Below are positions 20,837 to 34,000 of a DNA stretch of 38,483 nucleotides, piece after piece. Position numbers and translations under genes: made by a program. This DNA is from Thermoanaerobaculia bacterium (GTDB lineage Bacteria > Acidobacteriota > Thermoanaerobaculia > Gp7-AA8). Location of the stretch: contig JADGNY010000063.1 of NCBI GenBank assembly GCA_017883235.1, forward strand, positions 1 to 38,483, given 5' to 3'. Each line of letters starts with the position of its first letter. Position 1 is the stretch's first letter. The notes under the pieces were generated by a model. That model saw only the letters and a list, made by a program, of their open reading frames with translations, was not told the DNA's origin and searched no databases.

Positions 20837-20866
20837 TTGACAGCGGTTGCCGAAAAGCAGATATTT
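20837..20866 (+). promoter_or_regulatory. Sigma70-type promoter for the respiratory block
   Basis: TTGACA at 20837-20842 is a perfect -35 element. A -10-like GATATT/ATATTT lies 17-18 bp downstream at 20860-20866. The predicted start of transcription near 20873 leaves a leader of about 40 nt before the Rieske ATG (20913). It is the best canonical promoter upstream of the cytochrome genes. Confidence 0.6.
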
Positions 20867-20912
20867 ACGCACGCGCCGGAGCGGGCTCAATTCGGCACCT
20901 TCAAAACCCCGG

Positions 20913-21485
20913 ATGTCTGACGAAATCACGCCATTTCATATGGTTCCGAAGACTCCCCTTGCGGGGAGCGCGGCTGCTGAGATCCGCGAACAGGGCGAGA
21001 TCTCGCGCCGCAGTTTCCCCGTTGTCCTGACCACGGCCTGGGTGGCCCTGGCCGCCGCGCTCGGGGGGCTGAGCGCCGTCCTTCTCCGCTTCCTCTTCCC
21101 CAACGTCCTCTTCGAGCCCGTCCAGAAGTTCAAGGCCGGTCTGCCGTCCGACTACTCGGTCGGAGAGGTCGACGAGCGCTGGAAGGACAAGTACGGCATC
21201 TGGATCGTCCGCACCGAGGAGATCGTCTACGCCCTGATCACGGTTTGCACCCACCTCGGGTGTACACCGAACTGGCTTCCGACGCAGAACAAATTCAAGT
21301 GCCCCTGCCACGGCAGCGGTTACTACAAGTCCGGCATCAATTTCGAGGGACCGACTCCGCGTCCGCTCGAACGGGCCAAGATCTTCATCGACATCGCTGA
21401 CGGGCAGATCGTGGTCGACAAATCGAAGCAATTTCATCAGGAGCGCGGGGAGTGGACTGACCCCGAGGCATTCATCAAGCTGTAG
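20913..21485 (+). CDS. qcrA: Rieske [2Fe-2S] protein of a bc/b6-type complex
   Basis: A 190-aa protein, anchored by an N-terminal helix (about 36-62). SRRSF before the helix is Tat-like, as Rieske proteins are exported folded. The cluster-binding boxes are CTHLGC (C112, H114, C117) and CPCHGS (C130, C132, H133, S135), with disulfide cysteines C117 and C132. It accepts electrons from quinol and passes them to a c-type cytochrome. ATG 20913 is chosen because the frame upstream has no further start near a binding site. First gene of the complex, followed by cytochrome b6. Confidence 0.95.
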   Translation: MSDEITPFHMVPKTPLAGSAAAEIREQGEISRRSFPVVLTTAWVALAAALGGLSAVLLRFLFPNVLFEPVQKFKAGLPSDYSVGEVDERWKDKYGIWIVRTEEIVYALITVCTHLGCTPNWLPTQNKFKCPCHGSGYYKSGINFEGPTPRPLERAKIFIDIADGQIVVDKSKQFHQERGEWTDPEAFIKL

Positions 21486-21524: not shown

Positions 21525-22310
21525 ATGGCGAATCTACGAGGACTCCAGGAAGGCATCGTCAATTCGCAGATCTGGAAATCCGTTTTCCGGGTCGGCATCC
21601 CCAACACGAACCGCAAGCGCGTTCTGGCGGTGCTCGGGTCGCTGATTCTCCATCTCCATCCCGTCAAAGTCCGCCGCTCCGGCGTGCGCATGAGCTACAC
21701 CTGGTGCATGGGCGGAACCTCGTTCTTCCTTTTCCTCGTCGAGACCGTGACCGGCCTGCTGCTGATGTTCTACTACCGGCCGACCATCGAGTATGCCTTT
21801 ACCGACATCATGGACCTGCGCGAGCAGGCACCGTTCGGGATCATGCGCGAGATGCACCGCTGGGGCGCGCACGCCATGGTCATCGCGGTCTGGCTGCATA
21901 TGTTCCGTGTCTTCATGACCGGTTCGTACAAACCGCCGCGCGAGTTCAACTGGAATGTCGGCGTCATCCTCCTCGTGCTTACGCTGCTGCTCTCGTTCAC
22001 GGGATATCTGCTCCCGTGGGATCAGCTTGCGATCTGGGCCATCACCGTCGGTTCTTCGATGGCTCGCGCCTCTCCCGGTGCCGGTAATGAGGGGCCCATG
22101 TCGGGCCTGGTCAAGCTGGGGGATATACGACTTATTCATGCGGGTGACGATGCCCGCTTTGCGCTCATCGGCGGGCGGTCGATCGGGGCGGCGACGCTGC
22201 TGCGCTTCTATGTCCTGCACTGCGTGGTGATTCCTCTCGCGGCCGGCTTCCTGATGGCCATTCACTTCTGGCGAGTTCGAAAAGACGGAGGCATCTCGGG
22301 TCCGTTATGA
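21525..22310 (+). CDS. petB: Cytochrome b6-type subunit with heme c_i cysteine
   Basis: This 261-aa four-helix protein corresponds to the N-terminal half of cytochrome b. Heme b ligands are H111/H125 (MHRWGAH; VWLHMFRVF) and H222/H237 (LHCVV; MAIHFW). The 14- and 15-residue spacings match b6 proteins of the b6f and Gram-positive complexes. FYYRP, SFTGYLLPWDQ and RKDGGISGPL are also shared with b6. C61 in YTWCMGG sits where chloroplast b6 has the cysteine that covalently holds heme c_n/c_i. GAGGAGA precedes the ATG. It forms the quinol-oxidising core with the next gene. Confidence 0.93.
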   Translation: MANLRGLQEGIVNSQIWKSVFRVGIPNTNRKRVLAVLGSLILHLHPVKVRRSGVRMSYTWCMGGTSFFLFLVETVTGLLLMFYYRPTIEYAFTDIMDLREQAPFGIMREMHRWGAHAMVIAVWLHMFRVFMTGSYKPPREFNWNVGVILLVLTLLLSFTGYLLPWDQLAIWAITVGSSMARASPGAGNEGPMSGLVKLGDIRLIHAGDDARFALIGGRSIGAATLLRFYVLHCVVIPLAAGFLMAIHFWRVRKDGGISGPL

Positions 22311-22443: not shown

Positions 22444-23667
22444 ATGACTTTCATCAAGGATTTCATCAATGTACTGTCGGCGGGGTCGATCTCATTCACC
22501 CTGCTGACTTCGATTTTCGCGCTCATCGTCTATTTCAACCTGCTGGGCGGCCGGATCAAGGCTGTGGGCGGAATGGCCTTCATCGGCCTGGGCGTCTTCA
22601 TGCTGTTGATGGGGATTTTTGTGCCGCCGCTGCTCTATCTCGGCATCGCCTATCTCCTGATCCTTTTCGCGCTGGCCCGCCTGGGCGGACGGTTGTGGGA
22701 TACGAAGGTCGGTCTTCGACTGTTCGTCATCGGCGGGCTGGCGTTCGGCTTGTCGATGCTCGATCCGAATTTTTTCCTCATCGCGGCGAAGCCCGACAAC
22801 GTGCCCATCGTGGCGATGATCTTCCTCCTCGGCTTTTTTACCTGGGTGGCGCTGCGTAAGGCGTACCTCAACGACACCCAGATCGCCGTAGGCGGCATTC
22901 CGTGGGAGAAGACGGAGTCGGACGAGAAGCTCTTCACGTGGCCCGATCTCGTCTATACCGAATTGCTCTGCATGATCCTCCTGACGATCGTGATGATCGT
23001 CTGGTCGGTCGTTCTGCGCGCGCCGCTGGAAGAGGCGGCCAATCCGACGTCGTCTCCCAATCCTGCCAAGGCTCCCTGGTACTTCCTCGGCCTGCAGGAG
23101 ATGCTGGTCTATTTCGATCCCTGGCTGGCGGGCGTCGTACTGCCGACGCTGATCATCGTCGGTCTTATGGCCATCCCGTACATCGATACCAATCCAAAGG
23201 GGAACGGCTACTACTCCTTCCGCGAACGGAAGTGGGAGATCGGCGTTTTTCTTTACGGTTTTCTCGTGCTTTGGTCGTTCCTCATCATTACTGGAACGTT
23301 CCTGCGCGGCCCGAACTGGAACTTCTTCGGCCCCTTTGAATTCTGGGATCCGAACAAGCTCGTGCCGCTGGTGAACGTCGATCTGTCGGAGCTGATGTGG
23401 GTGAAGGTTCTGGGTACATCGCTGCCGAAACTCTGGATCATCCGTGAGATCTTCGGGCTTGGACTCATTGGTGCTTACCTCGGTCTTCCGCCGGTGATGG
23501 CGGCCGGACCGTTCCGCCGCTTCTATAACAAGATGGGGGCGGCCCGGTATTACGTCGGCGCCTATCTCTTCCTGATCATGATGTCGCTGCCGATCAAGAT
23601 GGTGCTGCGCTGGCTGTTCAATCTGAAATACATCCTTCATATCCAGGAGATTTTCTTCAACGTCTGA
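22444..23667 (+). CDS. Enlarged cytochrome b subunit IV-like protein
   Basis: At 407 aa this is more than twice the size of PetD (160 aa). The middle (about 200-290) matches subunit IV: an amphipathic stretch with NPTSSPNPAKAPWYF then LQEMLVYFDPWLAGVVLPT. The PEWY quinol-site motif reads APWY, so its Glu is missing at that position. Four extra hydrophobic helices precede it (1-150), and two or more follow it. The gene has GGAGG about ten bp upstream and is separated from petB by a repeat. It completes the cytochrome b core; the extra helices may contact the octaheme protein or the oxidase. Confidence 0.85.
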   Translation: MTFIKDFINVLSAGSISFTLLTSIFALIVYFNLLGGRIKAVGGMAFIGLGVFMLLMGIFVPPLLYLGIAYLLILFALARLGGRLWDTKVGLRLFVIGGLAFGLSMLDPNFFLIAAKPDNVPIVAMIFLLGFFTWVALRKAYLNDTQIAVGGIPWEKTESDEKLFTWPDLVYTELLCMILLTIVMIVWSVVLRAPLEEAANPTSSPNPAKAPWYFLGLQEMLVYFDPWLAGVVLPTLIIVGLMAIPYIDTNPKGNGYYSFRERKWEIGVFLYGFLVLWSFLIITGTFLRGPNWNFFGPFEFWDPNKLVPLVNVDLSELMWVKVLGTSLPKLWIIREIFGLGLIGAYLGLPPVMAAGPFRRFYNKMGAARYYVGAYLFLIMMSLPIKMVLRWLFNLKYILHIQEIFFNV

Positions 23668-23683: not shown

Positions 23684-26600
23684 ATGAAGCCACAAGAGCC
23701 GATTCCTCACAATTACTCGATTCGCAGGCTGAATTGGATATTCGCCCTGTCGAGCCTCGGTTTGCTCGTGGTCACCGGTCTTATCGTCGGTTACGACTAC
23801 ATCCGTGGCTGGAAGTGGTTCCAGCTCGAGTTCATGCGCATGCAGCGCGAGCGCATCGTCCAGGAAGTGCAGCTCGCCAGCTCCGCGGAGAACAAGCAAC
23901 TGCTGGCGAACCTCGACGAGCAGACGCGCAGGAACAGCCTGGAGCTGGCGGCGCATCGCGACCAATATCTATCCGCGCAGAAGGCGTTCGACGCGATGGA
24001 AGGGGACCACTATCGCGCCGATCAGGACTATCGCTTCGCCAAGGCGAACCTCGACGCGCAGCGCTACATCGCTGAGGTTTCCATCGTTCAGCACCGATCC
24101 GACGCCGCCCAGCAGCAGACGGAATACGAACGCCAGACGAAGCATCTCGCTGACCTGCAGGTCCGCCTGCAGGAGGTGACGCGCCAGCGCGATGCCGCAA
24201 AGGCGAACGTCGACCAGTGGCTGAAGAAAATCAAGGATGCCGAGGATAAGAGAAAAGAGTTGACGGCTTCCGTCGACCTGCTCGACAAACAGTTGAACCT
24301 CGTCGACATGGACCGGTTCAGCACGAACTGGATTCTCAGCCAGCCGATGCTCGACTTCGTCAACCCGGTGATCAAGATCGATCAAGTCGTTCTGAACGAT
24401 CTGTCGATCGACATGAACTACATGAACGTTCCTCGGGTCGACCGCTGCCAGACCTGCCACCGCGCCATCGACACGCCGGGATGGGAGTCGAAGACGGAAG
24501 CAGCCCGGCTCTCCCAGGAGTTGCAGCAGAAGCTCGACGCGTATGACATTCCCCAGGAAAAGCGCAAGGAAACGGAAGGCCGCATCGCCGAGCTCAAGCG
24601 GATCCAGGATGCTCCGAGCGACATCCTCAATCCTTGGCGCACCCATCCGAAGCTCGATCTCTTCGTCGGCTCGGCGTCCGTGCATCCGCTTCTCGAGTAC
24701 GGATGCACTGTTTGCCACCGCGGCCAGGATCGGGCCACCGAATTCGGCCGCGCCGGCCATACGCCTGCCAGCCCGAGGATGGAACATCGCTGGGCGGAGC
24801 GGACCATGCTCACGGGCGGCTTCTTCCCGCTGCCGCGCGACTTTGAAAAACGCAATTGGGGATACGAAGAGAACGAGTTTGTCGAGACGCCGATGTATCC
24901 GCGGCATTACTACGAGGCAGGATGCATCAAGTGCCACTCCGGACAGATGAGCGTCGACCGCGGCGACGACATTACCAAGGCGACGCAGACCGTCGAGCTC
25001 TACGGCTGCTACGCCTGTCACAAGATCAACAACTGGCGCTTCTCGGATCTCCGCAAGCCTGGTCCTGACCTCGGCGGCATCGCGGAGAAGACCACGCCGG
25101 AGTGGGCATTCCGCTGGATCAGCGAGCCGCACGACTTCCGGTCGACGACGCGCATGCCGTCGTTTTTCTATCAGCGCAACATGGTTGACCCCAGTGTCGT
25201 GCCGCCGCAGGAACGCGCGCATAACATCAAGCTTCAGGAGGCCGAGATCCACGCTATTGTCAGCTACCTCTTCGACAAGTCCACGCATCGTTCCTGGTCG
25301 CCGCCTGGAGCCGGCGATGCCGCCCGTGGCAAACAGATCGTCGGCAGCGTCGGCTGTCTGGGCTGCCATGTCGATACCGAGCAGGTAAAGGACGAGAAAA
25401 CGGGCCGGATCCGCCTTGCCAAACGCGAGGACTTTCCGCTGGAGCGCAACTACGGCTTCAACTTCACCGGCGTAGGGACGAAGACAAACGCGGCTTGGAT
25501 CTACAACTGGATCAAGAACCCGAAGGCCTATTACACGGATGCGCCGATGCCGTCATTGCGGCTCACCGATCAGGAAGCGTCCGATGTAACCGCGTATCTG
25601 CTCACAATGCAGAAGCCGGGCTTCATGAATACTCCGATCCGTCCGCCGGACGCACAGGCCGTTCACGATCTGGCCAAGGGCTATCTGATCAACACGCTCA
25701 GCGACCGCGACGCAGAATTGAGATTGCGATCGATGTCGGGTCACGATCAGCTCGTCTACCTCGGGCATCGCTCCATTGAAAAGTACGGCTGCTATTCGTG
25801 TCACAACATCAAGGGCTTCGAAGGTCTGAAGCCGGTCGGTACCGAGCTGACGGTCGAGGGGTCGAAAGCGCTGCATCTCTTCGATTTCGGCTTCATGAAT
25901 GATCAGCAGTGGAAAAACGAGGACGGCGCGACGGAGCATGTCATCCATACCGTGCCGTCATGGGTCTACAACAAGCTGCGCAATCCGCGGATCTACGACG
26001 ACCGCCGCACGAAGGTCTACAACGACAAGTTGAAGATGCCGAACTTCCACCTCACTCCTGAAGAGGCTCGCCGTATCGCCATGGTGGTCGTCGGTCTTAC
26101 GAAGGAGAAGGTGGCCGAGAACCGGATGGCCGGGCTCGACGCCCGGACCCGGTTCATCGAAGAGGGCCGCAAGCGGGTCTCGCAGCACAATTGCCGCGCG
26201 TGTCACGTCGTCGACGGACGCGGGCGCGCCATCGCTTCCACGATCGCCGACGCCAACTTTTTCCCGCCGGACCTGTCGCCTGAAGGTGCGCGCGCGCAGT
26301 CTCCGTTTCTCTTCAACTTTCTCAAAGACCCGACGGTGATGAAGATCCGGCCGTGGGTCAGCGTACGCATGCCGACCTTCCATTTCAGCGATGAGGAGAC
26401 CAATACACTGGTCACCTTCTTCGCGCAGGAAGGGCAGCGTTCGCAATTCGATACGGCCCGCAACGTGAATCCAACGGCGCAGAACGTCATGATCGGCAAA
26501 CAGGTTTTCACGATGTTGCGCTGCGGGCAGTGCCACGTCACGACGCCGGTGCAGAACCCGGAGAATCCGCCGGTGCCGAATACGGCGGAAACGGCGTCGC

Positions 26601-27046
26601 TGGCCCCGAATCTGACGCTGGCGCGCCTGCGGCTTCGCCACGATTGGATCTCGGATTGGATCCGCCGTCCCAACGAGATGATTCCCGGCACGAGAATGCC
26701 GGCCAACTTCCCGCGCGATGCCGCGACGGGCGGTTTCCAGTCGCCGCTGGCCATGGCCATCGATACGCCGCAGTTCGCGCAGTACAAAGCGACGTTGCTG
26801 CCCCTGTTCAAGGGCGATGAGAAGGAACTGAAGCGAACCATGAGCGATGCGGTCGCGCTGACCGACTATCTGCGCGATTACATCTGGAGCATTGGTATTA
26901 TACAAATGCGCACGGCCTCGCCGGACGGGCAGGCGCCGTCGATGGCGATGCCGCAACCGTCGCTGCCCCCGGTGGCGGCGCCGGCCGCGAAATCGACGCG
27001 CAATCAGCGCGGCGCGCCGGCGGCAGGCAGCGGACCAGGACGTTAG
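23684..27046 (+). CDS. Membrane-anchored octaheme cytochrome c (1120 aa)
   Basis: It contains eight CxxCH heme sites at C255, C341, C414, C442, C558, C703, C837 and C947. An N-terminal helix (about 18-37) anchors it, with the rest in the periplasm. Residues 45-210 are a long coiled coil. MP motifs after the later hemes (M491, M622, M785, M896, M1005) look like distal Met ligands, so hemes 4-8 are in about five class I cytochrome c domains; hemes 1-3 form a different N-terminal group. It directly follows the cytochrome b genes and replaces cytochrome c1/f and probably the mobile carrier. The Pro/Ala-rich tail is disordered. Confidence 0.92.
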   Translation: MKPQEPIPHNYSIRRLNWIFALSSLGLLVVTGLIVGYDYIRGWKWFQLEFMRMQRERIVQEVQLASSAENKQLLANLDEQTRRNSLELAAHRDQYLSAQKAFDAMEGDHYRADQDYRFAKANLDAQRYIAEVSIVQHRSDAAQQQTEYERQTKHLADLQVRLQEVTRQRDAAKANVDQWLKKIKDAEDKRKELTASVDLLDKQLNLVDMDRFSTNWILSQPMLDFVNPVIKIDQVVLNDLSIDMNYMNVPRVDRCQTCHRAIDTPGWESKTEAARLSQELQQKLDAYDIPQEKRKETEGRIAELKRIQDAPSDILNPWRTHPKLDLFVGSASVHPLLEYGCTVCHRGQDRATEFGRAGHTPASPRMEHRWAERTMLTGGFFPLPRDFEKRNWGYEENEFVETPMYPRHYYEAGCIKCHSGQMSVDRGDDITKATQTVELYGCYACHKINNWRFSDLRKPGPDLGGIAEKTTPEWAFRWISEPHDFRSTTRMPSFFYQRNMVDPSVVPPQERAHNIKLQEAEIHAIVSYLFDKSTHRSWSPPGAGDAARGKQIVGSVGCLGCHVDTEQVKDEKTGRIRLAKREDFPLERNYGFNFTGVGTKTNAAWIYNWIKNPKAYYTDAPMPSLRLTDQEASDVTAYLLTMQKPGFMNTPIRPPDAQAVHDLAKGYLINTLSDRDAELRLRSMSGHDQLVYLGHRSIEKYGCYSCHNIKGFEGLKPVGTELTVEGSKALHLFDFGFMNDQQWKNEDGATEHVIHTVPSWVYNKLRNPRIYDDRRTKVYNDKLKMPNFHLTPEEARRIAMVVVGLTKEKVAENRMAGLDARTRFIEEGRKRVSQHNCRACHVVDGRGRAIASTIADANFFPPDLSPEGARAQSPFLFNFLKDPTVMKIRPWVSVRMPTFHFSDEETNTLVTFFAQEGQRSQFDTARNVNPTAQNVMIGKQVFTMLRCGQCHVTTPVQNPENPPVPNTAETASLAPNLTLARLRLRHDWISDWIRRPNEMIPGTRMPANFPRDAATGGFQSPLAMAIDTPQFAQYKATLLPLFKGDEKELKRTMSDAVALTDYLRDYIWSIGIIQMRTASPDGQAPSMAMPQPSLPPVAAPAAKSTRNQRGAPAAGSGPGR

Positions 27047-27939: not shown

Positions 27940-29856
27940 ATGGCATTGAGACGACAGATCCGGGTAGGTTCGCAATGGATGTACGCGGACGAAGCGCACA
28001 AGGCGCTTCGCGAAGCGTTGCGCGTCATGGAAGATGAGAAGGGCGGCGAGCATGGTGGGCATCACCTGCCATGGATCCGGCGCTATGTGTTCTCGACGGA
28101 CCATAAGTGGATCGGTATCCAATACGGCTTCACGGCGTTGCTGTTCCTGCTGCTCGGTTTCTGCCTGATGATCCTGATGCGGCTGCAGCTCGGCTGGCCG
28201 GGAACCGCCTTCAGTGTCATGAAGGTGCTGGGCGAGACGCGCCAGTCAGGCGGCGTGCTCCTCCCCGAGGCCTACAACCAGCTCGGCGCCATGCACGGCA
28301 CGATCATGATCTTCCTCGGGATCGTGCCGCTGGCTGTCGGCGCCTTTGGCAATTACCTCGTTCCGCTGCAGATCGGCGCGCCCGACATGGCCTTCCCGAA
28401 GCTCAACATGATCAGCTACTGGTGCTATGCGCCGGGCGGATTGATCATGCTGGCCAGCTTCTTCGCTCCGGGTGGTACGGCACAGTCGGGCTGGACTTCC
28501 TATCCGCCGTTGTCAGTCATCGCGTCGCAAGGGCAGACCTGGTGGTTGGTAGGGATGGTCTTTCTCATCACCTCCTCGCTCCTCGGGTCGGTCAATTTCA
28601 TCGTGACGATCGTTCAGTTGCGCGCGAAGGGGCTGTCGTACATGCGCTTCCCCTTCTTCGTCCACGCGCAGTTCGTCACGTCGTTCCTGCTGCTGCTCGC
28701 TTTCCCGCCGCTCGAGGCGGCCGCGGTGCTGCAGCTCATGGACCGCGTGGCCGGCACCAGCTTCTTCATGCCGAGCGGCCTCGTCGTCAGCGGCCAGGCG
28801 CTCACGAATGCGGGCGGCGGCAATCCGCTTCTGTGGCAGCACCTGTTCTGGTTCCTTGCGCACCCCGAGGTCTACGTTCTGATTCTGCCCGCGATGGGAA
28901 TCGTGGCCGAGATCATCGCGAACGGAACGCGCAAGCCGCTGTGGGGCTACAAGTCGATGGTGTTCGCCACGGTCTTCCTCGGGTTCATGTCCTTCGTCGT
29001 ATGGGCGCACCACATGTTCCTTACGGGCATGGGGACGACGATCAGCGCCTTCTTCCAGACCACGACGATGATCATCTCGATCCCCTCGGTGATCATTCTC
29101 AGTTCGCTTTTCCTTTCTCTGTGGGGCGGCTCGATACGATTTACGACGCCGATGCTGTTCGCGCTGGCCTTTCTGCCGATGTTCGGCATTGGAGGACTGA
29201 CCGGCCTGCCGCTCGGGCTCGCCGCCACCGACATTCATCTGCACGACACGTATTACGTCATCGGCCACTTCCACTATGTCGTCGCGCCGGGGACGATCTT
29301 CGCCATGTTCGGCGGGATCTACTACTGGTTCCCGAAGGCGACGGGGCGCAAGCTTCATGAGGGCTGGGGGCGCGTACACTTCTGGATCTCGTTCGTCTGC
29401 ATCAACGGCATCTTCTTCCCGATGTTCGCGCAGGGTCTGGCAGGCGTGTCGCGGCGCCTTTATGACGGCGGTGCGCAGTACGCGCATGCGAAACAGATCG
29501 CGGCGCAGACGAATCCGTTCATGTCCGTCTGCGCGATCGGCCTGCTGGTTGCTCAGGTGCCGTTCATCTTCAACTTCCTCTGGAACGCCATCCGCGCGGC
29601 TCTTGGTCACCGTGACGAGGGGCTCGGTTCGAACCCGTGGGAAGCGACGACGATGGAGTGGGCGGCCACGACGTCGCCTCCGCTGGCGCACGGCAATTTC
29701 GAGGTTCTTCCGGTCGTCTACCGCGGACCCTATGAATACAACGTTCCCGGCGAGGCCGCCGAGTTCATTCCGCAGCACATGCCAACAGCGCCCGAGCCCG
29801 CGCCACGCGGCGGCAGCCTGCTGCCGTCGACGGCAGTGGCCATGAGGGAGAATTGA
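27940..29856 (+). CDS. ctaD: Cytochrome c oxidase subunit I (heme-copper oxidase, A-type fold)
   Basis: The 638-aa catalytic subunit has heme a ligands H119 (AMHGTIMIF) and H445, heme a3 ligand H443 (GHFHYV), and CuB ligands H308, H357 and H358 with the cross-linking Tyr Y312 (AHPEVY). The helix VI Glu (E310) and the D-channel Asp (D149, GAPDMAF) are present, so it is a genuine O2 reductase of A1 type. The K-channel lysine is missing: bovine IPTGVK corresponds to IPSVII (I386). N-terminal (1-45) and C-terminal extensions are longer than usual. It starts the oxidase operon and overlaps ctaE by one base. Confidence 0.96.
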   Translation: MALRRQIRVGSQWMYADEAHKALREALRVMEDEKGGEHGGHHLPWIRRYVFSTDHKWIGIQYGFTALLFLLLGFCLMILMRLQLGWPGTAFSVMKVLGETRQSGGVLLPEAYNQLGAMHGTIMIFLGIVPLAVGAFGNYLVPLQIGAPDMAFPKLNMISYWCYAPGGLIMLASFFAPGGTAQSGWTSYPPLSVIASQGQTWWLVGMVFLITSSLLGSVNFIVTIVQLRAKGLSYMRFPFFVHAQFVTSFLLLLAFPPLEAAAVLQLMDRVAGTSFFMPSGLVVSGQALTNAGGGNPLLWQHLFWFLAHPEVYVLILPAMGIVAEIIANGTRKPLWGYKSMVFATVFLGFMSFVVWAHHMFLTGMGTTISAFFQTTTMIISIPSVIILSSLFLSLWGGSIRFTTPMLFALAFLPMFGIGGLTGLPLGLAATDIHLHDTYYVIGHFHYVVAPGTIFAMFGGIYYWFPKATGRKLHEGWGRVHFWISFVCINGIFFPMFAQGLAGVSRRLYDGGAQYAHAKQIAAQTNPFMSVCAIGLLVAQVPFIFNFLWNAIRAALGHRDEGLGSNPWEATTMEWAATTSPPLAHGNFEVLPVVYRGPYEYNVPGEAAEFIPQHMPTAPEPAPRGGSLLPSTAVAMREN

Positions 29857-30479
29857 TGGACGCGCACGCTTCCGTGGGACACGCAGAGCTGGAGATCCCC
29901 TACAACGTTCATCCGCGTCCGGACACGGGCGTTTACAACGCCAAGCTCGGAATCTGGCTGTTTCTGGCCTCCGAGGTCATGCTGTTCGGCGCTCTCTTCT
30001 CGTCGCTGATCCTTCTGCGCACCGGCGCGGAGACATGGCCGCGCGGATACGAGATGCTGAACGTCCCCTTGGCTACGTTCAACACCTTCATCCTCATCGT
30101 GTCGAGCGTAACGGTCGTCATGGCCTGGTCTCAGTTGCGCCTCGGCAATCTCAAGAAAGGCCGCATCTACATTTCGGCGACGATCCTGTGCGCTCTGATC
30201 TTCCTCGTCAACAAGGCCTTCGAGTACGGTCACGAGTTTCGCGAGCACAACTTCCCGAAGACGAACAACTTTTTCGCGATCTACTTCACGTTGACCGGTT
30301 TGCATGGTCTGCACATCATCGGCGGAGTGATCGTCTTTCTCTATTTTCTCGGGCCGGGCGCGAAGATGTGGGCGCGCGATCCGGAGCGCTATACCAACCG
30401 GATCGAGGTCGTCGGCCTTTACTGGCATTTCGTCGACCTGGTCTGGATTTTCCTTTTCCCTGTTTTGTACCTCATGTAG
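29856..30479 (+). CDS. ctaE: Cytochrome c oxidase subunit III
   Basis: A 207-aa, five-helix protein. KLGIWLFLASEVMLFGALF, AEYGHEF-like AFEYGHEF, FFAIYFTLTGLHGLHIIGG and GLYWHFVDLVWIFLFPVLYL are standard subunit III signatures, and the His/Glu pair near the D-channel entry is retained. ATG 29856 overlaps the ctaD TGA by one base; a TTG three bases earlier is less likely. Two N-terminal helices of the seven-helix form are missing, as in many bacterial subunits. It stabilises subunit I and supports proton uptake. Confidence 0.95.
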   Translation: MDAHASVGHAELEIPYNVHPRPDTGVYNAKLGIWLFLASEVMLFGALFSSLILLRTGAETWPRGYEMLNVPLATFNTFILIVSSVTVVMAWSQLRLGNLKKGRIYISATILCALIFLVNKAFEYGHEFREHNFPKTNNFFAIYFTLTGLHGLHIIGGVIVFLYFLGPGAKMWARDPERYTNRIEVVGLYWHFVDLVWIFLFPVLYLM

Positions 30480-30491
30480 GAGGAGCACGAC

Positions 30492-30869
30492 GTGACCGAT
30501 CCCGCAGCCGCAGTGGAGCCAGGCGTCGACGTGCACGAGCACGCCGGCGTGGGTGACCCTAATGCTCACCATCACAGCCCGGAGCAGATCCGCTCGGAAA
30601 TGCGGGTCTATATAACGGTCTTCATCGGACTCGCCGTACTGACCGCCGTGACTGTCGGTGCCTGCTATGGACTGAAGCTGCCTGTCCATACCGCGATCAT
30701 CGTGGCCCTGATCATCGCCTCGATAAAAGGCTTTCTGGTTGCCGGCTTCTTCATGCACCTGCTATCGGAGAAGAAGGTCATCTACGGCGTGCTCATTCTC
30801 ACGGTCATCTTTTTCATCTTCCTGATGACGTTACCCATCAGTCATCACGCCAACCCATTCGGATCGTAA
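30492..30869 (+). CDS. ctaF: Cytochrome c oxidase subunit IV (prokaryotic type)
   Basis: A 125-aa protein with a His-rich N-terminus (HAGVGDPNAHHHSPEQ) and three hydrophobic helices. The helix pair around IASIKGFLVAGFFMHLL is the hallmark of the COX4_pro/CtaF family. GTG 30492 has a strong AGGAGG 8 nt upstream that overlaps the ctaE stop. It is an accessory subunit that stabilises the oxidase core. Confidence 0.88.
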   Translation: MTDPAAAVEPGVDVHEHAGVGDPNAHHHSPEQIRSEMRVYITVFIGLAVLTAVTVGACYGLKLPVHTAIIVALIIASIKGFLVAGFFMHLLSEKKVIYGVLILTVIFFIFLMTLPISHHANPFGS

Positions 30870-31352: not shown

Positions 31353-32132
31353 ATGGAAAAATTTCTTGCGCAGTTCATGCCGGTCGACGCCTCGGAGCAC
31401 GGTCCTTACCTGGATCGGCTTAGCGCGAACGTGCACTGGCTGATGCTCGTGTTGTTCGTCGGATGGGGCCTGTTCTTCGTCTATACACTGTGGCGCTATA
31501 ACGCCAAACGGAATCCGAAAGCGAGCTACCACGGCGTTCGGAGTCACTTCTCTACCTACAGCGAAGCCGGCGTGGCCGTCGTTGAAGTCATCCTCCTGGT
31601 CGGCTTCTCCATTCCGATGTGGTCCAAGTGGACGCACGTGCCGCCTGCGTCTTCAAATCCATTGGAGATGCGGGTCGTGGCCGAGCAGTTCGCCTGGAAC
31701 GTTCAGTATCCAGGACCGGATGGAATCTTCGGCAGGCGCGATATCAAGCTCGTCACCTCGTCGAACCCGCTCGGGCTCGATCTCACGGACCCTCACGCGA
31801 AAGACGATATCGTCACGCTCAACGACCTTCATCTCGAGGTCAACCGGCCGGTGATCATTCACGTTACGTCGAAAGACGTCATCCACAGTTTCAAACTGCC
31901 GGTCATGCGCGTCGAACAGGACGCTATCCCGGGCATGGAGATCACGATCCACTTCACTCCCGTCCTGACGAACGAGACAAATGCGGAGAGCGACAAGTGG
32001 GAGATCGCCTGTGCGCAGCTCTGCGGTCTGGGACACTATCGGATGCGCGGGCAGATGTTCGTCCACTCGAAAGACTCGTTCAAGAAGTGGCTGGCGGCCG
32101 CGCCGCCGGCGCAAACCAGCATCGGCTCCTAG
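31353..32132 (+). CDS. ctaC: Cytochrome c oxidase subunit II (CuA)
   Basis: A 259-aa protein with two transmembrane helices (28-48, 72-92) and a periplasmic cupredoxin domain. The CuA ligands are H168, C210, C214, H218 and M221 (CAQLCGLGHYRM). The electron-entry aromatic region is EQFAWNVQYPG. The second helix is odd: instead of ExxWTxxP it reads YSEAGVAVVEVILL, with Glu at 71 and 78. No heme c domain is fused, so electrons should come from the octaheme cytochrome or the cupredoxin. It is encoded after subunits I, III and IV, not before them. Confidence 0.95.
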   Translation: MEKFLAQFMPVDASEHGPYLDRLSANVHWLMLVLFVGWGLFFVYTLWRYNAKRNPKASYHGVRSHFSTYSEAGVAVVEVILLVGFSIPMWSKWTHVPPASSNPLEMRVVAEQFAWNVQYPGPDGIFGRRDIKLVTSSNPLGLDLTDPHAKDDIVTLNDLHLEVNRPVIIHVTSKDVIHSFKLPVMRVEQDAIPGMEITIHFTPVLTNETNAESDKWEIACAQLCGLGHYRMRGQMFVHSKDSFKKWLAAAPPAQTSIGS

Positions 32133-32135
32133 GAA

Positions 32136-33119
32136 ATGAGACCTTCTTTCGAAGCGTCACCCCAGGCATTGCGGCATTCCGACGAGACCCCGGTGTGGCT
32201 GCGGCACTTCACGAAGTTCGTCGCTGGCTCGACGCTCTTCCTCATTTTCGCTGGAGCGATGGTCACCTCGACCGGTTCCGGCCTGTCGGTTCCTGACTGG
32301 CCGCTTTCCTACGGGATGGTGATGCCGCCGATGGTCGGCGGGATCTTCTACGAGCACGGCCACCGCATGATCGCGGCTACCGTCGGCCTGCTGACGGTGA
32401 TTCAGGCGGTTTGGTTGCAACTGCGCGAACCGAAGCGCATAGCACGGATTCTCGGCTGGTGCTCGGTCGGCGCCGTCATCGCGCAGGGAGTCCTCGGCGG
32501 CGTGACGGTGCTCCTGCTGCTTCCGCACTCCGTCTCCATCGCCCACGCCGCTCTCGCCGAGATCTTCTTCTGCCTGAACACCTCCATCGCCTTTTTCACG
32601 TCGAGGTGGTTCCGGGCCTCCCGGACGCTGGAGAAGGGCGACGCACCGATCGGTCTGACGTCGTCGCTGGTCCTGGTCACTTACGCCCAGATCCTGATCG
32701 GGGCGACGATGCGGCACCTCGGCGCGGGACTGGCAATTCCTGATTTCCCGATGTCGTTTGGTCGTCTCGTGCCGCACTTCACCAGTCTGGAGATCGCCGT
32801 CAACTTCGCCCATCGCGCCGGCGGCGTTTGCATCGCGGCCCTGATCATCTACACCGCCATCCGTCTGCGGCGGTTCGAGTCGAGCCATCCGCTGCGGCAG
32901 CTCTCGAACCTGCTCGTGACCGTCGTGCTGATTCAGATCGTGCTCGGCGGCTACGTGGTCTGGAGCGGCAAGCAGCCGGTGGTCACCAGCGTCCACGTGA
33001 TGACGGGCGCGGCGACGCTGGCTCTCTCGCTCCTCACCGCGCTGACGGCGCGTACGATCGGCTGGCGGACAGGCAGGCAGGGCGCTCGCGCACTTCTTGT
33101 CACCGAGGTGCCGGCATGA
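32136..33119 (+). CDS. ctaA: Heme A synthase (COX15/CtaA)
   Basis: This 327-aa, eight-helix enzyme oxidises the C8 methyl group of heme O to make heme A. Conserved pieces are GAMVTSTGSGLSVPDWPL, the EHGHRMIA motif with a paired His, IAHAALAEIFF, and NFAHRAGG in the second half, which together provide the heme ligands. The gene starts three bases after the ctaC stop and overlaps ctaB by four (ATGA). It supplies the cofactor for the adjacent oxidase. Confidence 0.94.
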   Translation: MRPSFEASPQALRHSDETPVWLRHFTKFVAGSTLFLIFAGAMVTSTGSGLSVPDWPLSYGMVMPPMVGGIFYEHGHRMIAATVGLLTVIQAVWLQLREPKRIARILGWCSVGAVIAQGVLGGVTVLLLLPHSVSIAHAALAEIFFCLNTSIAFFTSRWFRASRTLEKGDAPIGLTSSLVLVTYAQILIGATMRHLGAGLAIPDFPMSFGRLVPHFTSLEIAVNFAHRAGGVCIAALIIYTAIRLRRFESSHPLRQLSNLLVTVVLIQIVLGGYVVWSGKQPVVTSVHVMTGAATLALSLLTALTARTIGWRTGRQGARALLVTEVPA

Positions 33120-34000
33120 GCGATGTACTGGCTCTGGCGCGGCCGGCGGGACTGGCCAGCATCTCGCGCGATTACCTCGAGCTGTCGAAGTCGCGCATCG
33201 TGATGATGGTGCTGATCACCACCGCGGCCGGCTATTTCTTCGCCGCGCCCCATATCGACTGGGCGCTTCTTGTCAACACGCTCGTCGGGACGGCGCTCGT
33301 CGCGGCAGGCACCAATGCTCTCAATCAGTATGTGGAGCGCGACCACGACGCGAAGATGCGGCGGACGCGGCTCCGCCCGCTGCCCGACGGTCGCATTTCT
33401 GCCCGCGCCGCACTCCTGTTTTCGGTCGCTATCGCTGTGATCGGTACCGGGTACCTCGGCGTCGCCGTGAACTGGCTCACCGCCGCGCTCGGAGCGTTTA
33501 CGCTCACGAGCTACATCTTCGTCTACACCCCGCTGAAACGGGTCTCGACGATCTGCACGCTCATCGGCGCGATCCCGGGCGCGATCCCGCCGCTGATGGG
33601 ATGGACGGCCGCGACCGGCTCGCTCGGCGCCGGCGGCTGGATCATCTTCGCCATCCTCTTCTTCTGGCAGCTCCCGCATTTCATGGCCATCAGCTGGATG
33701 TACCGCGATGATTACGCCCGCGGCGGCTTCGCCATGCTTGCTGTACGCGATGGGGACGGCCAGGCGACCGCGCGGCACGCGGTGCTCTACAGCTTCGCCC
33801 TTCTCGCCGTCAGCGTGCTGCCCCCGCTGTTCGGCCTCTCGACGTTCATTTATCTGGCCGGGGCCGTCATCGCCGGAACGGCCCTCACCTTTGCCAGTTT
33901 CGCCTTCCTGGCCTCCCGCACACCGGTTCGGGCGCGGCGGCTGTTCATGGCCTCGAACATTTACCTCATCGTCATGATGACGTTGCTGGTTTTGGCATAG
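33116..34000 (+). CDS. ctaB: Protoheme IX farnesyltransferase (heme O synthase)
   Basis: The 294-aa UbiA-family prenyltransferase adds a farnesyl group to heme B. ATG 33116 overlaps the ctaA stop. The two Asp-rich signatures are NALNQYVERDHDAKMRRT (binding farnesyl diphosphate through Mg2+) and YRDDYARGG. About eight or nine helices are predicted. Together with CtaA it makes heme A for CtaD. It ends the respiratory block; the next gene has its own promoter. Confidence 0.95.
   Translation: MSDVLALARPAGLASISRDYLELSKSRIVMMVLITTAAGYFFAAPHIDWALLVNTLVGTALVAAGTNALNQYVERDHDAKMRRTRLRPLPDGRISARAALLFSVAIAVIGTGYLGVAVNWLTAALGAFTLTSYIFVYTPLKRVSTICTLIGAIPGAIPPLMGWTAATGSLGAGGWIIFAILFFWQLPHFMAISWMYRDDYARGGFAMLAVRDGDGQATARHAVLYSFALLAVSVLPPLFGLSTFIYLAGAVIAGTALTFASFAFLASRTPVRARRLFMASNIYLIVMMTLLVLA

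Follow-up and report, generated by a model that had tools for sequence, protein, structure and literature searches.

Absence of the K-channel lysine from a family A haem-copper oxygen reductase, and a candidate proton carrier in helix 2 of subunit II

The stretch of DNA analysed here (38,483 nucleotides; the window) encodes an enzyme that, as judged from its sequence, belongs to the family A haem-copper oxygen reductases but lacks their K-channel lysine. The reading that we favour, with a probability of roughly 0.63, is that two subunits now contribute to a rebuilt K-channel, such that E78, a carboxylate in helix 2 of subunit II, would replace the lysine as the mid-channel proton carrier to Y312 of subunit I. 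Among the relatives surveyed, loss of the lysine is nearly strictly associated with the buried acid and with Ser or Thr at position 380 of subunit I. Somewhat more cautiously, we also favour that the lysine, commonly regarded as essential in family A, was swapped in at least three lineages for a subunit II helix 2 carboxylate together with a change from Ala/Gly to Ser/Thr in helix VIII, i.e. a recurrent, charge-reversing rebuild of the channel across subunits in which subunit II would become an interior proton conductor.

The subunit I gene, its family and its neighbourhood

The gene and the channel and active-site residues of its product are the following.

27940 to 29856, + strand: subunit I (COX1/CtaD), 638 aa, K-channel lysine absent (PF00115, E 7e-136)
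28384 to 28386, + strand: D149, D-channel entry (alignment)
28867 to 28875, + strand: E310 and Y312 of HPEVY, D-channel end and active-site Tyr (alignment)
28906 to 28911, + strand: A323 and E324, the former at the site of the K-channel Ser in helix VI (alignment)
29077 to 29079, + strand: S380, Ala in Paracoccus (alignment, codon position)
29086 to 29088, + strand: S383, at the site of the K-channel Thr, Paracoccus T351 (alignment)
29095 to 29097, + strand: I386, codon ATT, at the site of Paracoccus K354 (gap-free alignment)

The top NCBI model for the window subunit I was TIGR02891, which matched over its full length but below threshold (565 bits; cut-off 671 bits). The best PDB match was subunit I of Paracoccus (1ar1_A; phmmer, E 6e-117), while ba3 subunit I matched at ~1e-5 only. 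From HPEVY through the HFHY haem ligands, the phmmer alignment with 1ar1_A contains zero gaps, and it places Paracoccus K354 (VPTGIK) on I386 (IPSVII), confirming the position that the sequence-only reading had proposed from a gap-free alignment. We take the I386 site to be that of bovine K319, and S255 and H256 to be the bovine counterparts in helix VI. Residues 376-392 of the window subunit I (the helix VIII stretch) contain no Lys. An alternative alignment that places another Lys at the site, which the sequence-only reading had named as the case against itself, was sought and none was found in helix VIII; the gap-free alignment and the fold agree.

Of the 80 loci that were kept, all 30 with 55-78% identity are lysine-less; among the other 50, this is true of L053 alone. 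Because the same loss is found in all 30 loci, and is thus conserved across the family, sequencing error or chance as its source is ruled out. According to their record titles, the 30 loci are from Acidobacteriota, Omnitrophota, Marinimicrobia, Planctomycetota, Verrucomicrobia, Hydrogenedentota, Elusimicrobia and a Deltaproteobacterium. On the same basis, lysine-less family A enzymes are spread over at least eight phyla.

For structural comparison, a protein consisting of subunit II and subunit I of L018, a relative of the window, was modelled with the stop between the two read through (mean pLDDT 87.5, pTM 0.88). The L018 subunit I is 65% identical to that of the window, and in the model it matched Rhodobacter over 521 residues with Z 48.8 and rmsd 2.1, and Paracoccus with Z 48.0. 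Because of the match to Rhodobacter at Z 48.8, we consider the fold to be the usual one.

The D-channel set of family A is present in the window (D149, N138, N156 and E310), as are all six haem and CuB histidines, so that the earlier statement that D149, E310, Y312 and the metal ligands are intact holds. The A-type K-channel is defined by Lys354, Thr351, Ser291 and Tyr280 (in part of PMC3084760), for which the window has I386, S383, A323 and Y312. Since the Lys and the helix VI Ser are absent, the enzyme is therefore placed in family A by similarity and by its D-channel, and not by its K-channel. The window genome additionally encodes a second A-type subunit I, which has the lysine (L001, HPAVY), and a COX1 fragment (L003).

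The subunit I gene is part of a same-strand run that comprises genes for a 4Fe-4S protein (19346), a HEAT-repeat protein (19816), a Rieske protein, the two parts of cytochrome b, a cytochrome c, the oxidase genes, CtaA and a UbiA-type protein. From 27940, the order is subunits I, III and IV, a small protein, subunit II, CtaA and the UbiA-type gene.

20847 to 21485, + strand: Rieske protein (PF00355)
21525 to 22310, + strand: cytochrome b, N-terminal part (PF00033)
22444 to 23667, + strand: cytochrome b, C-terminal part (PF00032)
23684 to 27046, + strand: cytochrome c, 1120 aa with eight CxxCH, between the cytochrome b and oxidase genes (PF00034, motif count)
from 27067, + strand: protein with a carboxypeptidase-regulatory-like domain, directly before subunit I
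29853 to 30479, + strand: subunit III (COX3; PF00510, E 1e-19)
30492 to 30869, + strand: subunit IV (COX4_pro, caa3 subunit IV type; PF03626; TIGR02229 above cut-off)
31353 to 32132, + strand: subunit II (COX2/CtaC) with CuA motif CAQLCGLGHYRM (PF00116, E 3e-7)
32136 to 33119, + strand: haem A synthase CtaA/COX15 (PF02628, E 3e-31)
32828 to 34000, + strand: open reading frame with a C-terminal UbiA domain, residues 128-374 (PF01040, E 3e-60), assigned to haem O synthase CtaB from its gene context

As described in part of PMC8407424, A1 oxidases of cultivated Acidobacteria adjoin bc1 genes in 'superoperons' in which the oxidase genes come first, and genes of one superoperon of strain KBS 83 are upregulated at nanomolar O2. 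The CuA motif of the window reads CAQLCG, and many of the lysine-bearing relatives aligned with it have CAELCG.

Residues associated with loss of the lysine

Relatives were collected in genome surveys of the window's phylum (297 genomes), around loci titled Planctomycetota, Spartobacteria, Gemmatimonadetes and Neomarinimicrobiota (199, 115, 121 and 80 genomes, respectively), and around L053, L058 and L044 (297, 198 and 199 genomes, many of those around L044 being shared with the window-phylum set, as judged by identical contig places). Rows from the last three surveys were kept out of the counts, and L251 and L252 are reported apart. Two fragments without HPEVY were dropped before counting. 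In a later reading by motif, eight Pseudomonadota rows were unreadable and were left out. Using a chosen part of the survey matches and merging duplicates, we obtained 213 distinct subunit I sequences, i.e. 116 lysine-less (among them L210, which was counted as such with its helix VIII cut off) and 97 lysine-bearing; because sequences close to the window, or close to the boundary separating the two types, were chosen preferentially, these proportions are uninformative about nature. The window's own group (group 1) supplies 92 of the 116 lysine-less rows. For 201 of the 213 rows, a same-strand subunit II gene lay no more than 6 kb away, and these rows make up the pair counts; the remaining rows, eight lysine-less and four lysine-bearing, stand outside these counts because a complete subunit II was not in reach.

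Some genomes have more than one lysine-less enzyme: L207 and L208 belong to separate branches and lie a few kb apart in one genome, and the single-contig genome G562 (L217, L218, L244) has two lysine-less family A subunit I genes. For Methylacidiphilum fumariolicum SolV, one aa3 type is listed in the part of a review considered here (PMC8498564).

With L053 left out, two positions of subunit I separate the groups fully, 386 and 380. Position 380 is Ser or Thr in 115/115 lysine-less rows and Ala or Gly in 97/97 lysine-bearing rows. Position 323 is Ser in 96 of the 97 lysine-bearing rows and is relaxed in rows without the lysine, where it is mostly Ala, Gly, Phe or Ser. D149 is retained in 86/91 group 1 rows and in 23/23 of the remaining lysine-less rows. 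Four lysine-less rows, L026, L114, L115 and L116, have also lost D149 (to Gly, Gln, Gly and Glu, respectively) and have kept the buried subunit II acid. In L231 and L233, also lysine-less, subunit II has a buried Asp, and a Glu stands one residue before the lysine site of subunit I (ISVPIAEM).

The sequence-only reading had noted the altered helix VI and had suggested E324 as a compensating route. The first part stands, in that A323 occupies the Ser place with E324 next to it; the second does not, E324 being neither peculiar to the window nor coupled to the loss. The idea that E324 relays protons by water to Y312, with helix 2 of subunit II uninvolved, is favoured by its near-universal presence in lysine-less rows (Glu or Asp in 91/92 group 1 rows, with one X, and in 22/23 others). 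Nevertheless, Asp or Glu is also found at this position in 83 of the 97 lysine-bearing rows, and the residue may serve channel entry in either group; because it is common where the lysine is present, E324 does not answer the lysine loss, and we regard this route as decidedly improbable. The companion suggestion, that Glu residues of subunit II provide the route, was a good guess. A survey of relatives for co-variation, which had been recommended, bore out that the lysine loss recurs, and the residues that co-vary with it are two that had been missed, E78 of subunit II and S380.

The two acids of subunit II helix 2 in the window are the following.

31563 to 31565, + strand: E71 of subunit II, probably at the site of the K-channel entry Glu, Rhodobacter E101 (alignments)
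31584 to 31586, + strand: E78 of subunit II, buried helix 2 acid at E71 +7, the proposed stand-in for the lysine (alignments)

A first automatic reading of helix 2 gave 13 lysine-bearing rows with an acid and was rejected: in most of these rows the acid was the entry Glu, where the helix begins, and in L033, L049 and L227 wrong segments had been read. The helix 2 acids were recounted with two other anchors, the entry Glu and the QxxW motif after the helix. A buried Glu or Asp 29-38 residues before QxxW was detected in 106/107 readable lysine-less pairs versus 1/93 lysine-bearing pairs; with L205 added by tblastn across a frameshift, the lysine-less count is 107/108, and 106/107 without L210. 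The lone lysine-bearing row flagged by this anchor is L049, in which the acid lies after the helix. By the other anchor, the entry Glu is present in 93/93 lysine-bearing rows and an acid at +4 to +18 in 1/93, namely L232, with the acid at +17, at the helix end. The buried acid of lysine-less rows is Glu in 92, Asp in 9 and both in 5. A second acid lies 5-9 residues before it in 72/107 lysine-less rows, so that E71 is not universal. S380 and a buried Asp recur in L251, a further lysine-less type. In L205 and L245, the subunit II frame is apparently frameshifted and the helix 2 acid is still readable.

E71 pairs with the entry Glu in two alignments and is one residue off in the HMMER alignment and four off in another. 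The register of helix 2 is uncertain. Relative to the entry Glu, the buried acid is at +7 in three alignments, although one of these pairs E71 a residue out of step, and at +11 in a fourth; in group 2 (see below) it lies, by eye, about one residue nearer the periplasmic end. In the L018 model, helix 2 of subunit II spans residues 70-98, and the acid at 82 is well inside it. Helix 2 of subunit II lines one cavity at the K-channel entrance together with helices VII and VIII of subunit I (in part of PMC10095113). Moreover, among hydronium sites modelled by their distance from the Y288 CA (in part of PMC9687966), those at 23.4 and 19.1 Å flank E101 of subunit II, the one at 12.8 Å is just below K362 and the one at 10.4 Å is above K362. 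An acid 7-11 residues up the helix from E101 (about 10-16 Å) would be expected at the height of the lysine amine or from there towards the Tyr. In the reading favoured here, E78 would face the channel between the lysine height and the Tyr and would take part in proton transfer, and the enzyme would be capable of turnover and pumping.

Separate switches of the lysine state and the proposed proton path

Trees were quick, carried no bootstraps and, being unrooted, do not distinguish gain from loss; the alignments from which they were built excluded helix VIII and part of helix VI. On the tree of 97 rows, the lysine state requires five changes, four of them forced by starred branches, and this was repeated with 77 rows. 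Forcing the lysine-less rows (minus L053) into one clade was worse by 257 log-likelihood units (AU p 2e-67; 80 rows, quick tree), and a single origin of all lysine-less oxidases is rejected by this test. Three lysine-less lineages are seen, and in each the acid accompanies the loss: group 2 (IT.P types; L122, L125, L126, L128, L129, L131, L144, L153, L189-L191, L202, L203 and L205), the sister of which is L121 (98*); L206, which is nested in a lysine-bearing group (100*); and group 1 with the window. The placing of the L152-like rows, of L231, L233 and L251, and of group 1 is poorly resolved. On these quick trees, the lysine, the acid and S/T380 would have switched jointly at least three times.

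Another account is that the association reflects descent alone, the two traits occurring together in a few old lineages by chance and without a functional link. Only four independent pairs are available; the acid follows lysine loss in three and there is no difference in one, necessarily that of L053, so that a sign test is not significant (p 0.25), and the dominance of group 1 among the lysine-less rows points the same way. Against this account, the readable pairs include no lysine-bearing row with a helix-core acid, and the sole lysine-less row without the acid is L053, which has lost two CuB histidines; the acid persists although its letter varies; and L121, with the lysine and without the acid, differs in both traits from its sister group 2. 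We therefore consider descent alone improbable.

In L053 and its relative L252, the lysine is replaced by Val and Glu, respectively, position 380 is Ala, the buried acid is absent and two CuB histidines are lost (QPE, QH). Because both adjoin L249, which has the lysine, on the tree (100*), a separate functional change seems to have occurred in them, and this would be consistent with the acid being required wherever oxygen chemistry persists. The CuB His to Gln changes (QPEIY, WGQH) are found in L053 (7001-8656), L252 and L253, all with Val or Glu for the K-channel lysine, which perhaps have NO reductase or another new activity.

This class is what speaks for the notion that oxygen is no longer reduced in the usual way, e.g. 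by an NO reductase or a non-pumping oxidase. NO reductases have their CuB histidines replaced; by contrast, H308, H357 and H358 are present in the window. The lysine-less rows other than the L053 class likewise keep the haem and CuB histidines that they cover (partial rows leave one gap at H443/H445 and two at H119), and Y312 is present in 116/116 lysine-less rows. Moreover, the CuA motif is found in 95/104 subunit II sequences of lysine-less rows, the other nine being open reading frames cut by the locus end, and in the window the genes for haem A synthesis lie downstream of subunit II. Such a loss of the usual chemistry is very improbable.

In the path that we propose, protons of the reductive phase would enter from the cytoplasm and reach E78 via E71 of subunit II and/or E324 of subunit I. 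From E78, water together with S383 and S380 of subunit I would lead them on to Y312, at the binuclear centre; the hydroxyl of S380 in helix VIII is new, as is E78. The remaining protons would take the retained D-channel from D149 to E310, and the window oxidase is probably a proton pump.

Alternatively, the D-channel could deliver all protons, the K-channel having decayed and the subunit II acid serving assembly or contact with lipid or a small subunit. The retention of D149 in most lysine-less rows is compatible with this. On the other hand, the acid and S/T380 switch together with the lysine in separate lineages, and the four rows that lost D149 as well still have the buried acid. In addition, lysine-to-Met oxidase mutants barely turn over despite an intact D-channel. 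Delivery by the D-channel alone is thus unlikely.

If E78 acts as proposed, the lysine-less oxidases would be natural, convergent answers to what the K-channel lysine does: where a carboxylate of another subunit can substitute, neither a lysine nor a positive charge as such would be required, but a protonatable group near that depth. Which sites to exchange in Rhodobacter or Paracoccus can be read from the reciprocal pattern. Moreover, a residue that is used as a hallmark of family A is missing from a large natural group across many phyla.

Comparison with known oxygen reductases

Loss of the K-channel in family A is already in print and, as such, known: family A oxidases with an altered or lost K-channel, arising several times, are described in part of PMC8239418, and share with the window a loss within family A. 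A subunit II replacement for the lysine is not named in the main-text parts of that paper, its supplementary K-channel figure apart, and was not found in a targeted literature search with few subscription papers in reach.

With the canonical A1 oxidases of Paracoccus, Rhodobacter and bovine mitochondria, the window enzyme shares the fold, the metal ligands, the D-channel, E310, Y312, subunits I-III and a hydroxyl at the Thr place, here Ser. It differs from them in having Ile for the Lys, Ala for the helix VI Ser, Ser for the helix VIII Ala, and an extra buried Glu in subunit II.

Family B (ba3) enzymes resemble the window enzyme in the absence of the K-channel lysine and in the hydroxyl residues of helix VIII. 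As characterised in part of PMC3084760, they have no D-channel and have Thr, Ser and Tyr at the K-channel sites, whereas the window enzyme has retained the D-channel and shows Ile instead of Thr at the position of the Lys; moreover, the SoxB model gave 69 bits on the window subunit I against a cut-off of 700. Family C (cbb3) enzymes likewise have no Lys, and S383 of the window fits their Ser at the Thr place; by contrast, family C has Tyr at the place of the helix VI Ser and Tyr-II as the active-site Tyr (in the same part of PMC3084760), while the window enzyme has A323 and, as its active-site Tyr, Y312 in HPEVY.
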